Source of the DNA: a virus
Virus record (IMG/VR): IMGVR_UViG_3300045741_000104
Coordinates: 1-64,000 of that record
DNA length: 64,000 nt
Reading direction: 5' to 3' (one strand)
Below the pieces are notes generated by a model. It searched no databases. It saw only the letters and a list, made by a program, of their open reading frames with translations, and was not told the origin of the DNA. Shown one piece after another: positions 1,276 to 4,912 of this stretch; position 1 is the stretch's first letter, and each line of letters starts with the position of its first letter. The position numbers and the translations under genes were made by a program.

Positions 1276-1779
1276 CTACTTGTTGTTCTTCATATCCCTT
1301 CGGCTCAACCCTGTCGGATGCACGGGTGTAGTGATCGCGGTCATCCAAGACCAACCATCACGTAGCACCCTCGCTCTAACGCGCGCCGGAGTTATCTTAT
1401 ACTGCTCGCACCATGCCGTTAACGGCTTTGTTTCTCCTTCCATTGTCACCCAAACAGTTCTACTGGTGTTACGCATCTGCTGTGTGTGCGACGCCCACAT
1501 ACAGTTGCCGGGCTCATACCCTTTAGTGCGATCAACACGCTCGATCGTCATACCGTCAGGGCGTTCCCCCATGTCCTCCAGAAAATTGGCGAATGACAGC
1601 CACCGCTCGCAGACTGTGACCCCTTTGCCGCCATAGTGCTTGTAGTTGACGTTATTCTGGTTCTTGCATCGCCGCAACATTGCATACCATGTCGTGTATG
1701 TCGGCGTAGGCTTACCAGCACGACCATATCGGTGGCCGTGCTGATAATTCGGGCTAGTTATTGTTCTTGGCTGATCCAT
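1276..1779 (-). CDS. Free-standing HNH homing endonuclease with C-terminal HTH
   Basis: The product (167 aa from the ATG at 1779) has the HNH-3-like phage homing endonuclease pattern. It reads MLRRCKNQNNVNYKHYGGKG, then W-x-x-F-x-x-F-x-x-D-M-G, then IERVDRTKGYEPGNCMWAS, and a C-terminal NUMOD-like helix-turn-helix (ITPARVRARVLRDGWSW). It would cut a specific intron-less or element-less allele and spread its own gene. It lies between unrelated small replication-operon genes and overlaps the next gene by 26 nt, as expected for an inserted selfish gene. A longer start at 1830 is possible but has no better ribosome site. Confidence 0.85.
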   Translation of the reverse strand: MDQPRTITSPNYQHGHRYGRAGKPTPTYTTWYAMLRRCKNQNNVNYKHYGGKGVTVCERWLSFANFLEDMGERPDGMTIERVDRTKGYEPGNCMWASHTQQMRNTSRTVWVTMEGETKPLTAWCEQYKITPARVRARVLRDGWSWMTAITTPVHPTGLSRRDMKNNK

Positions 1780-2038
1780 CAGAGTTCCGAGGGTAACTAT
1801 AGTTGTCGTGAGGACTAGCTGCGCGAGCATTGGCGAGTGTGTTGGAGCCGCCTTTGGACAGCATCTTAATGTGGTCCACCGTCTGGCCGGGCTTCAACAT
1901 GCCTTTCTTCAGCATCTGACGGCGCAGGCGATGGCGCTTGGCGTTCTCGGAGTTGTGACCGGTGCCGATCTCTCCGCGAGCTTTAGCTGTGGCATATTCT
2001 CTAGCGTAATCCCTGACGTAACCGGGGCTGCTAGGCAT
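1754..2038 (-). CDS. Small HNH-type endonuclease-like protein (94 aa)
   Basis: The C-terminal half has TVDHIKMLSKGGSNTLANAR followed by SPHDNYS, the compact D-H...N...N form of the HNH fold seen in small phage endonuclease-like proteins. The N-terminal half is basic (KRHRLRRQMLKKG). A strong AGAGGAGAG ribosome site precedes the ATG at 2038, and the start overlaps the upstream gene by 8 nt. Some such proteins act in packaging or as free-standing nicking enzymes; which applies here cannot be told from sequence. Confidence 0.7.
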   Translation of the reverse strand: MPSSPGYVRDYAREYATAKARGEIGTGHNSENAKRHRLRRQMLKKGMLKPGQTVDHIKMLSKGGSNTLANARAASPHDNYSYPRNSDGSAKNNN

Positions 2039-2201: not shown

Positions 2202-4912
2202 TTTATCTCCTCCAGCGTTCCGTATGAGAAGCCCCACTTGGCATCCCAAGGCATAGGCACAGGCGACTTGAAGCCCCATGCCTCCTCGTAATCGATACTG
2301 TCAAGCACAGCTCTCATCTCCATTATGGTGTCAAGCGGTATGTCTTCTTTTACATAGAAGATAAGCCCATCGTGAAGATCGAAAGCAAAGCGCCCTCCCA
2401 TGTTCCTGACGACAGGAGCAAGCGCCGCCATCGCCAGATACTTCTGGTCCGCGCCGGTGCCTTGGATGCGGTAGTTGATCGAGGTCGAGCCCATCGACCA
2501 GCCCAGCGCTCCGCCCCAGTCGCCCAGCACCGTAACGCGCCGGCCGGCGAACGTCTCCACATAGCCGGTCTGCTGCGTCTGATCGATCTGACGAGCCCAA
2601 TACTGGCGCACGCCGGGGTAGGTGCGGTGATATGTGTCGCAGATGTCCTGCGCCTCCTCGATGGTCATGTTCAGCCCATACTGGACCCGCGCCACGAACA
2701 GCAGCTTCTTGGCCGAGGTCCTATACTGAAGAGAGTTGTGGACAATCTTACCGTTGGCCGCAAACCTGTGACGAGGGCCACAGTTCACAATGTCGTAGAC
2801 CCACGCCTTGTGCGGTTCGCAAGGTTCTGCTGTCGCGTAGCCAAGCGCAAGTTGCCACGCTCGTAGTGGCCGTCGTTGTCCACTCGGTCGATGTCCAGTC
2901 GTTTGTAGGTGGGGTGTGGAAGATGCTCCTTGACCCACTCCACCGCCTCCTTGACGGAGGCAAAGCGACACTCGATCCCACGCCCGCCGTAGTTGTGGTA
3001 AGACTTGTCTGATGGATTGTTGCAGCGTTGAAACCATGCGTTCACACGCTTCTGCAACGTCTTGTCTACCGCTGTCTCGCAGATCAATCGGCCGCTGGAC
3101 ATGTGGCGCTGGCGCGTAGCGCACGCCTTGCACTGCACCGAGCGCCCCGTTTCCATGAACCGCAGATTGGCGTCCCTCTTCACTCCACAGTCGCAGCGCG
3201 CCTGAACATAGAGCGCCCCCGATTTCTGAAAGGGTGCGTCGGACAAGACCGTCCACGATCCGAACCGTTGACCGGAACTGACGCGGCCATCCCTCGCCCA
3301 GCGCGGGTTCAATGCGCCAGCCATGTCTGGCCGCGTCACGAATTTCGACCCAGTCGCCATCCACCAGCACCTTGTGCTCTGGGGTCGCGGTAAGGCTGTC
3401 GTAATTAACGACAACCTTGTAGCCGCTGCACACCACACCATCATGGCTGACAAAATCTTGCCCGTCCCAGACAAGATCGTCAGCACGCACATGTTCGATA
3501 CTGCAAGGACCGCGATCTGTCAAGACTTGGGTTCCGGCAGCCATGCAGAGGTTAGCGATCTTGCCGAGCTGGCGCTGCGCCTTGGCGACCTTATCGCCGG
3601 TGTGGACGCGCCGGATCAGTTCCCGGTAGTCCACCCGCGCGATGGCCGCTCCCATGAAGCTGTGGGCGTCCTCACCGGGCTGGCACAGCCCCAGCATCGT
3701 CTCGTCGCCCGAGGCGACCGCCATCCACCTGAACTCTTGGCTGGCAGCGTCGAACTCGACCATGCGGTAGCCCAGCGGGGCGCACAGGATCGACCGATAC
3801 TCAGGCCCACGCTTGATCTGGTGCAGGGCGAAGCCTGTGGGCAGGTCGACGTTGCGCTCCTTGCCCGTCTTGGGGTTCACCTCCCGCGCTGGCTGGTCGG
3901 AGCTATAGGTCATGCGCCCCGAGTAGGTGCCGAACATGCGCGCCTGCGGATGGGCGCAGCCGTCGCCATTGTAGAGGGCTGACGCCAGCGGCGTGTCGGC
4001 GAACTTGGTGCGGTTCCCGTTGGCGTCCCTGAACGCCTTGACGATCTCAGCCCTGACATCCACCAGCGCCAGCTCGTGCAGCGTCTCCTTGCCGGTGCTG
4101 TTGGCCCCGGTGGCGGTCTTGACGACCGGCTCCAGCCCCCACTTGCCGAACATCAGCTCGCCGAGCTGCTTGGACGAGGCCAGCACCTTCTCTGTGGCCC
4201 CATAGGGCTCCAATTCGCGCAGGGCGTAGGCAGCCTCGCTGTTCAGGTGAGCCTGTAGTTCCGCGGCGGCGATGATGTCGATAGGCAGCCCGCGCAGGTT
4301 CGCCAAGGCGACATGGGGGATCGAGTGCGCCTCGATCACCGCCGCCTGAAGCTGCGCCGGCGTGAGCAGGTTGAACCACCGCTTGGCCAGCGTGATGGTC
4401 AGGGCAACGTCCATCTCGTTATACTCGGCGAGTTTCTTCAGCTCGTCGGGATCGGTCGAGTGAAAGTCGATCTCCTCCTCATAGCCGGCGAACTCGGGCA
4501 GGAACTCCCGCACACAGGTCTTCAGGCTGTAGGACCGCTTGCGCGCGCGGGCGATGTCATACTCGGGATCGACATCGTAGTGCTTCCACAGCAGGTAGCC
4601 ATCGAGCCAGAAGACCCTGAACACCAAGTCTTCCAGCCCGTAGGCGATCAGCCACTGGATATCGAACTGCACGAACCAGCCGACAATGCTTCGCTGTTCG
4701 CGAATAGCGAACTCCAGCATGGCGCGCATGTCGTCCTTGGACGGGAACAGCTTGCTGACCACAAGCCACTCGCCATCCTTGTAATAGCGCCAGACGAAGC
4801 TCGTGACCCACGCATCGCCAGTGGCGACCCTCCATGGCTGAAGGGCATACTCTGGCTTCGTGCCCGACGTTTCAACGTCGAAGCCGATCACTTGGTTATT
4901 GTCCCAGCTCAC
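2198..4912 (-). CDS. polA: Family A DNA polymerase with 3'-5' exonuclease domain, interrupted by an intein
   Basis: The 904-residue precursor has an N-terminal DEDD exonuclease domain: motif I GFDVETSG near residue 10, and motif III YNEMDVALT near 164. A PolA-type polymerase domain follows. Motif A is MVEFDAASQEFRWMA near 384, and motif C is FDLHDGLIFYV near 790. Motif B (the O helix) is split: RQLGKIANL ends at residue 455 and SLQYRTSAKK resumes at 727. Splicing removes 271 residues and leaves a polymerase of about 633 residues, normal for phage enzymes of this family. The start is GTG at 4912 with GAGGAG seven bases upstream; it overlaps the preceding gene by 17 nt. This is the replicative polymerase of the phage. 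A second reading frame inside the intein encodes an HNH endonuclease (see 2785-3324). Confidence 0.93.
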   Translation of the reverse strand: MSWDNNQVIGFDVETSGTKPEYALQPWRVATGDAWVTSFVWRYYKDGEWLVVSKLFPSKDDMRAMLEFAIREQRSIVGWFVQFDIQWLIAYGLEDLVFRVFWLDGYLLWKHYDVDPEYDIARARKRSYSLKTCVREFLPEFAGYEEEIDFHSTDPDELKKLAEYNEMDVALTITLAKRWFNLLTPAQLQAAVIEAHSIPHVALANLRGLPIDIIAAAELQAHLNSEAAYALRELEPYGATEKVLASSKQLGELMFGKWGLEPVVKTATGANSTGKETLHELALVDVRAEIVKAFRDANGNRTKFADTPLASALYNGDGCAHPQARMFGTYSGRMTYSSDQPAREVNPKTGKERNVDLPTGFALHQIKRGPEYRSILCAPLGYRMVEFDAASQEFRWMAVASGDETMLGLCQPGEDAHSFMGAAIARVDYRELIRRVHTGDKVAKAQRQLGKIANLCMAAGTQVLTDRGPCSIEHVRADDLVWDGQDFVSHDGVVCSGYKVVVNYDSLTATPEHKVLVDGDWVEIRDAARHGWRIEPALGEGWPRQFRSTVRIVDGLVRRTLSEIGGALCSGALRLWSEEGRQSAVHGNGALGAVQGVRYAPAPHVQRPIDLRDSGRQDVAEACERMVSTLQQSIRQVLPQLRRAWDRVSLCLRQGGGGVGQGASSTPHLQTTGHRPSGQRRPLRAWQLALGYATAEPCEPHKAWVYDIVNCGPRHRFAANGKIVHNSLQYRTSAKKLLFVARVQYGLNMTIEEAQDICDTYHRTYPGVRQYWARQIDQTQQTGYVETFAGRRVTVLGDWGGALGWSMGSTSINYRIQGTGADQKYLAMAALAPVVRNMGGRFAFDLHDGLIFYVKEDIPLDTIMEMRAVLDSIDYEEAWGFKSPVPMPWDAKWGFSYGTLEEIK
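2735..3547 (-). mobile_element. Intein in DNA polymerase motif B (271 aa)
   Basis: The intein begins at Cys456 (CMAAGTQVLT, block A) and ends at VHN with Ser727 as the +1 residue. Block B is SLTATPEHKVLVDGDW with the T-x-x-H signature. Block F is WVYDIVN...HRFAANG and block G is KIVHN followed by S, so it is a canonical class 1 intein. Splicing restores RQLGKIANL-SLQYR across the O helix. The stretch between about residues 535 and 695 of the precursor does not resemble a LAGLIDADG or in-frame HNH domain; it is an out-of-frame reading of an HNH gene. The splicing blocks alone add up to only about 100 residues. Confidence 0.9.
2785..3324 (-). CDS. HNH homing endonuclease nested out of frame within the polymerase intein
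   Basis: In a frame different from the polymerase, 179 residues from an ATG at 3324 form a complete HNH-type protein. It opens GQRFGSWTVLSDAP, continues with a Cys-rich zinc region (ARCDCGVKRD, then QCKACATRQRH), then VNAWFQRCNNPSDKSYHNYG, and ends LDIDRVDNDGHYERGNLRLA. These are the same conserved blocks as in the separate HNH gene at 1276-1779. It stops at 2785, inside the codons for intein block F. No convincing ribosome site precedes the ATG, so its expression route is unclear; the same open frame continues upstream to 3492. The HNH character is plain; independent expression is inferred. Confidence 0.75.
   Translation of the reverse strand: MAGALNPRWARDGRVSSGQRFGSWTVLSDAPFQKSGALYVQARCDCGVKRDANLRFMETGRSVQCKACATRQRHMSSGRLICETAVDKTLQKRVNAWFQRCNNPSDKSYHNYGGRGIECRFASVKEAVEWVKEHLPHPTYKRLDIDRVDNDGHYERGNLRLATRQQNLANRTRRGSTTL

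Follow-up and report, generated by a model that had tools for sequence, protein, structure and literature searches.

An HNH-family gene overlapping, in a shifted frame, the intein of a phage DNA polymerase

Known large inteins carry their endonuclease in frame, as part of the protein that splices. The polymerase gene studied here raises the question of whether a single stretch of DNA can hold a splicing intein and an HNH endonuclease in two different reading frames. We analysed a window of 64,000 nucleotides taken from a 66-kb IMG/VR virus record. A first-pass annotation of this window, made from the letters alone, had proposed that an HNH gene entered a polymerase intein in a shifted frame and that splicing protein and endonuclease are made separately. 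The polymerase gene and its intein lie as follows.

4912-2198, minus strand: family A DNA polymerase ORF with a 3'-5' exonuclease part, 904 aa, GTG start (PF00476, E=3.3e-36; phrog_17, E=1.6e-63).
3547-2735, minus strand: intein of 271 aa, polymerase residues 456-726, with blocks A, B, F and G, the HN|S junction and a predicted Hint fold.
3547-3374, minus strand: N-terminal splicing half, block A to block B, recognised by motifs (pLDDT 96-97).
2800-2735, minus strand: C-terminal splicing half, blocks F (VYDIVNCGPRHRF) and G (IVHN), recognised by motifs (pLDDT 84-97).

The polymerase extein aligned over its full length with phage polymerases that lack an intein (L003-L022), and the intein is inserted at NL|SLQYR in the motif B region. 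Block A reads CMAAGTQVLT with Cys1 at 3547, block B reads YDSLTATPEH (about 3403-3374) with T-P-E-H present, and blocks F, which includes VYDI..RF, and G run to IVHN|S, ending at 2735. The features of a class 1 intein, namely Cys1, the block B TxxH, F, G (HN) and Ser at +1, are all present in a single ORF. Removing the intein in silico yields GKIANL|SLQYRTS, a motif that is uninterrupted in relatives lacking the intein (GKVANLSLQYRTS in L003). From block B to block F, the polymerase frame runs through roughly 160 residues without recognisable motifs. Performing AlphaFold2 modelling of the polymerase-frame intein, we find a confident Hint domain built from residues 1-80 and about 241-271, with low confidence in between; residues about 93-216 mostly fall below a pLDDT of 50. 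In a VIA comparison, the Hint model matched the Mtu RecA intein 3ifj (Z 16.5, rmsd 2.3, 115 residues), as well as Ssp DnaB, gp41-1 and further inteins. Motifs and predicted fold together suggest that the polymerase intein splices itself.

In the second frame, the same region encodes the following.

3519-2785, minus strand: HNH-frame ORF from stop to stop, +1 relative to the polymerase (ORF translation).
3324-2785, minus strand: predicted HNH endonuclease gene from ATG 3324, 179 aa, start uncertain (phrog_374, E=1.9e-30; pLDDT 89.6).
3276-2803, minus strand: conserved HNH core with zinc-type Cys pairs, NYGGRGI and LDIDRVDNDGHYERGNLR (nested-HNH HMM, E=1.5e-58).
3276-2803, minus strand: double-coding overlap, with the HNH core in frame +1 and a predicted disordered, stop-free intein loop in frame 0 (pLDDT, stop avoidance and HNH-frame selection).

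The HNH stop codon (2787-2785) falls within the block F codons. A profile search matched the window HNH to the HNH endonuclease family PHROG 374 (E=1.9e-30; 1e-17 to 1e-45 for its relatives), while the Pfam HNH models did not reach it in a Pfam search. Across 45 relatives, the positions C, C, C, C, D, R, Y, N and R are invariant, the four cysteines being of the zinc type. D146-R147, N158 and N170 are kept; no His is invariant among the 45, and the family has replaced the canonical catalytic His, with D-R for D-H. We assume nuclease activity from this family membership. AlphaFold2 modelled the HNH frame with a mean pLDDT of 89.6. Foldseek and VIA searches of solved structures returned weak matches (the best being the HNH nickase 4h9d, E=0.31), so the fold comparison adds nothing for the HNH part, and PDB profile searches gave no match for the intein or the HNH protein. 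According to the models, the same DNA specifies a folded enzyme in the HNH frame and a disordered loop in the polymerase frame. The first-pass annotation was right in its coordinates, in the 271-aa intein with blocks A, B, F and G, in the two frames open over the same DNA, and in an HNH protein with zinc cysteines that ends inside the block F codons.

Using alignments of the intein and of the HNH, we scanned viral contigs and the genomes of bacteria in one common pipeline and collected 191 non-redundant intein N-halves. Contiguous HNH-bearing inteins made up 135 of them, 95 with the HNH in frame +1 and 40 in frame +2, and not one of the 191 had an HNH in the intein's own frame. Another 27 were contiguous and HNH-free; for the other 29, no C-half was recognised within the ORF, because the contig ended, the C-blocks were weakly detected or the intein was truly split. 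Split inteins with an HNH between halves on separate ORFs were seen in 13 relatives, and the same HNH family occupies this arrangement, e.g. in L087, L093, L105, L182 and L209. A search starting from the HNH only gave 20 nested cases, all out of frame with IntN and IntC flanks, 7 between halves and 51 free-standing genes. Two members from the viral scan with the polymerase, L001 and L002, are 36-41% identical, have their inteins in the same motif and carry the HNH also in +1. L002 is AT-rich (GC 0.41 over the HNH region), and there both coding frames are open and the third frame is stop-rich. Nested HNHs also occur in public phages, in +1 (Streptococcus Javan113, Gardnerella AB1) and in +2 (EBPR siphovirus 2, Vibrio 97.13, Salmonella Ent1), and Javan113, AB1 and Ent1 among them are isolated phages. 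Polymerase A is the main host gene (163 in one cluster); SF2/SNF2-type helicases and a DnaB-like ATPase also occur. In some polymerases (L110, L161, L184), two inteins each hold their own hidden HNH.

The first-pass annotation had suggested checking whether related inteins have the middle part absent or in the other frame, and both were seen: the HNH was out of frame, in one of two frames, in every HNH-bearing relative, and HNH-free mini-inteins exist. The first-pass annotation had also named relatives with a lost HNH and an intact intein as counting against its reading. Such relatives do occur; since HNH loss with an intact intein is an expected decay stage of the homing cycle, they do not refute the overlapping-gene reading.

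In a tree of the HNH proteins, the +2 elements group together (SH-aLRT 98), and at least four changes are needed to account for the +1 label; judging from this tree, out-of-frame nesting arose more than once. Neither multiple origins nor the start module described below had been part of the first-pass annotation. The relatives link three arrangements of one HNH, namely free-standing, between split-intein halves and nested out of frame, and the free-standing genes and split-intein arrangements are plausibly neighbours in the history of the nested element.

We then compared substitutions in the two frames. Over the overlap, 18 pairs of +1 elements differed at HNH codon positions 1, 2 and 3 by 140, 82 and 365 changes, and 10 pairs of +2 elements by 128, 66 and 345. 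Most overlap changes in the +2 pairs fall on polymerase codon position 2 and always alter the polymerase frame. Over the first 50 intein codons, the counts at polymerase positions 1, 2 and 3 were 56, 49 and 176 for the +1 pairs (176/281 third) and 23, 12 and 77 for the +2 pairs (77/112 third). An independent count with extein flanks gave the same pattern: the flanks vary at the polymerase third position and the overlap at the HNH third position. A codon-wise check of both frames had been suggested in the first-pass annotation. This third-position bias means that the HNH frame is under amino-acid constraint in the overlap. Consistent with this, the window and its closest relative, L044, are identical at 93/149 HNH-frame residues (62%) vs 53/145 (37%) when the overlap is read in the polymerase frame.

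For the polymerase frame, we permuted HNH codons synonymously and counted stops in the other frames. The polymerase frame held 0 stops over the overlap, vs expected numbers of 756 (+1) and 144 (+2), about 900 in total. Stops in the third frame matched expectation (1035 vs 978 in +1; 539 vs 544 in +2), and 52 free-standing HNH genes showed no stop avoidance (303 vs 306 and 679 vs 733 expected). For the window alone, about 0.25% of synonymous permutations left the polymerase frame stop-free. Contiguous members are open by definition, and the real test is the share of intein-flanked HNHs that are open: the polymerase frame was open in 138/151, vs about 1.7 expected by chance. A chance open frame from GC-rich DNA was ruled out by the synonymous permutation, AT-rich members (GC 0.37-0.45) included. 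In summary, selection over the overlap keeps the amino acids of the HNH and keeps the polymerase frame only free of stops and frameshifts.

These observations bear on two other explanations. The HNH may truly be in frame with the intein, as in known large inteins, with two compensating sequencing or assembly frameshifts in the window. We consider this exceedingly improbable. Not one of the 191 relatives is in frame, two different shifted frames occur, the polymerase frame avoids stops, substitutions show the bias of the HNH frame, and more than 130 independent contigs, among them those of Javan113, Gardnerella AB1 and Salmonella Ent1, exclude the sequencing error that the first-pass annotation had named as a possible refutation. 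The other explanation is a group I or other intron with an HNH ORF, removed as RNA, in which the open polymerase frame is accidental. Group I introns commonly carry phage HNH genes of this kind. However, no Rfam match was found in the window region (E<=1) or in seven relatives (gathering threshold), the intein blocks are complete and their Hint fold scores a Z of 16.5, and a polymerase frame kept open in 138 nested HNHs is far from accidental; an intron is thus highly improbable.

A likely route of HNH expression is written into the intein's own codons. Among +1 members, the codons of the intein motif [KR]-E-V-I-x-Y-[DE] spell A(A/G)GGAGGTNATNNNNTATGA, which is at once a Shine-Dalgarno (SD) sequence, a 9-nt spacer and an HNH-frame ATG. 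At this start module, the Glu codon is GAG in 41/49 (23.9 expected from host usage) and the Tyr codon is TAT in 52/69 (30 expected). GAG and ATG are coupled: ATG was present in 41/41 members with GAG and in 10/28 without it (Fisher test, 8e-10), and no comparable codon coupling was found elsewhere in the same ORFs. Members without the GAG/ATG module often have a nearby SD-start (e.g. GTG in L045, ATG in L055 and L061). In +2 members, the start module lies within the motif WDGxEWV, about 48-50 codons upstream of the HNH core. The best SD-starts had median energies of -7.4 (+1) and -7.7 (+2) kcal/mol vs -1.9 and -2.3 after synonymous recoding, and fell below p=0.05 at 59% (+1) and 58% (+2) of loci. 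HNH-free mini-inteins largely retain the TAT bias (17/20), which may reflect recent HNH loss and weakens the codon-bias argument. We also considered the methionine of the conserved motif EMVGxQ(F/Y)G as the HNH start; it is not general (L001, L060, L062, L094 and others are without it), and at this site GGAG abuts the ATG with no spacer.

In the window, the candidate start is the following.

3373-3358, minus strand: candidate HNH translation start, AAGG, 9-nt spacer and ATG (3360), with a weak duplex of -3.9 kcal/mol.

Its AAGG-N9-ATG spacing equals that of GAGG-N9-start in L045, L050 and L055. An alternative, ATG 3324, is conserved in L044, and the window and L044 share a DM..NPRWARDGRV start region. 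Against synonymous recoding, the SD-start signal was not significant for the window (p=0.26) or for L044 (p=0.37). The first-pass annotation had called the HNH complete; its intact frame and core stand, and completeness depends on which of the two starts, ATG 3360 or 3324, is used.

The HNH might instead be produced by programmed ribosomal frameshifting, which would fuse the N-terminal polymerase and IntN to the HNH and would set the nuclease at a low, fixed level relative to the polymerase. Two features of the window agree with this route: an HNH frame that stays open as far upstream as 3519, and the weak start signal. Across the family, however, the SD, 9-nt spacer and start codon are conserved in most members, an HNH-frame stop often stands one or two codons 5' of the SD-start module, and inspection of the junctions by eye revealed no common slippery site. 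Frameshifting is therefore quite unlikely. Because an SD and a start codon recur family-wide within the splicing-motif codons, internal initiation is the likely route of HNH expression.

The weak start in the window also raised a question of whether its HNH is a decaying remnant, non-functional in this phage beside an intein that still splices. The usual family SD/ATG site is lost in the window (AAGGTTGTCGTTAATTACGAC), the HNH C-terminus is shorter than in L001 and L002, and mini-inteins and HNH remnants do exist (L048, L177, L198). On the other hand, the HNH frame is intact, its identity to L044 exceeds that of the polymerase frame as given above, and all conserved HNH residues are retained. 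We regard decay as unlikely.

The window element is thus very probably a mobile intein whose homing endonuclease is an overlapping gene and not a fused domain, as the first-pass annotation had read it; relatives, substitution bias and stop avoidance support this reading, in which two separate products would be made. Ribosomes would translate the polymerase ORF straight through the insert, and the Hint halves (A/B and F/G) would fold around the disordered, stop-free loop. The intein would then excise itself and restore the polymerase. The same mRNA would be read in the second frame from the SD/start module inside the codons of the N-terminal splicing region, giving a separate zinc-bearing HNH-family protein. 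During co-infection, the target of this protein would be the insertion site in polymerase alleles that lack the intein; it would nick or cut them there, and repair would copy the element in. It is the family membership of the HNH and the patchy distribution of the element that point to homing.

More broadly, inteins of phage replication genes probably include a widespread mobile class with multiple origins, in which splicing and homing are carried out by two proteins from one segment and the ribosome-binding site of the nuclease lies within the splicing motifs. The nuclease is perhaps shielded from decay, as the majority of indels hitting it would disrupt the essential host gene as well; this suggests a selfish gene protected by its entanglement with an essential one. 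Inteins without an in-frame nuclease are usually taken as immobile mini-inteins, and mini-inteins need rereading. Nested inteins are one of the clearest natural sets of same-strand genes within genes in phages, with selection measurable in both frames.

We find no report of an out-of-frame HNH nested in a real intein in the open-access literature (a report in a subscription journal is possible). What is new among mobile inteins is that a true cis intein and an overlapping nuclease gene are combined; the closest published example is the ShiLan domain, an insertion in a mycobacteriophage DNA methylase (Arsenault, Gosselin and Gogarten 2025, PMC11855218). Like the window element, ShiLan has a complete HNH out of frame in a phage gene that itself remains open through the insertion, and a patchy distribution suggesting homing; how its hidden HNH is translated is an open question. 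Its authors saw no intein or intron splicing domain and inferred that the insert stays in the methylase; they saw no ribosome-binding site and suggested leaderless GTG starts (PMC11855218). In contrast, the window HNH lies inside a real intein with a full Hint domain and all splicing blocks, and its family has a conserved SD/start module. A later genome note also reports an out-of-frame HNH, not inside an intein (PMC12613952).

Canonical homing inteins, whether of the LAGLIDADG type like PI-SceI or with an in-frame HNH like the dCTP deaminase intein of cyanophage CL131 (PMC6293099), resemble the window element in that the Hint domain is interrupted between blocks B and F. In them, the endonuclease is excised with the intein as one of its in-frame domains. 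The window instead encodes it in a separate, overlapping ORF, and what lies in frame is predicted to be disordered. Another arrangement also keeps the endonuclease gene unfused between the IntN and IntC coding parts. These are the 'fractured genes' of Dassa et al. 2009 (NAR 37:2560), reportedly inteins split in two, with a free-standing endonuclease lying between the two parts. Unlike them, the window has an unbroken host ORF (a single 904 aa), would splice in cis, and has its nuclease overlapping in another frame.

In Salmonella phage Ent1 and other Jerseyviruses, the polymerase intein belongs to the same family and has the same architecture as that of the window; it differs in carrying its HNH in +2 and in its insertion point, GKA|C, and by the HNH tree it is independent of the +1 type. 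Annotation misses the shifted-frame nuclease even in well-studied Salmonella and Streptococcus phages: the Ent1 record reads 'intein, encoding splicing domains' and leaves the nested HNH unmarked.

Directly downstream of the window polymerase (family A), two HNH-type genes were found:

1276-1830, minus strand, HNH-type gene
1754-2038, minus strand, HNH-type gene

These ORFs overlap each other by about 77 bases, and profile searches matched the pair to phrog_3377 (E = 3.4e-47) and PF01844 (E = 7e-4). The HNH at 1276-1830 is free-standing and related to the one nested out of frame inside the polymerase intein.

Among the relatives' loci compared with the window (L-numbers), five polymerases (L110, L161, L184, L187 and L190) carry a pair of inteins, and both members of each pair contain a separate HNH that is out of frame. 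The frames differ between the paired inteins of L110 and L161, where one HNH lies in +2 and the other in +1 relative to the polymerase. Split inteins, in which an ORF terminated by IntN is followed by an HNH gene and then by an ORF starting with IntC, occur in L087, L093, L105, L182 (upstream copy), L209, L220, L231, L233, L240, L242, L255, L156 and L189. The downstream part of split L087, L093, L105 and L182 holds a second intein of the nested +2 type.

In the inteins of L048/L049, L177 and L198 the out-of-frame HNH is reduced to a short remnant, and L069, L085, L098 and L123 have full mini-inteins. Both forms appear to be stages of decay within the homing cycle.

Two relatives of the same polymerase family carry a different intein at another site (GTY|CVPG...TGN|TSR), with a long middle part that stays in frame:

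L026, 4464-5332, different intein, about 290 aa
L033, 6969-7840, different intein, about 290 aa

The L045 helicase, which hosts a nested-HNH intein, seems to have an additional intein at the GAGK-T Walker motif in the upstream part of its ORF, probably of the LAGLIDADG type.
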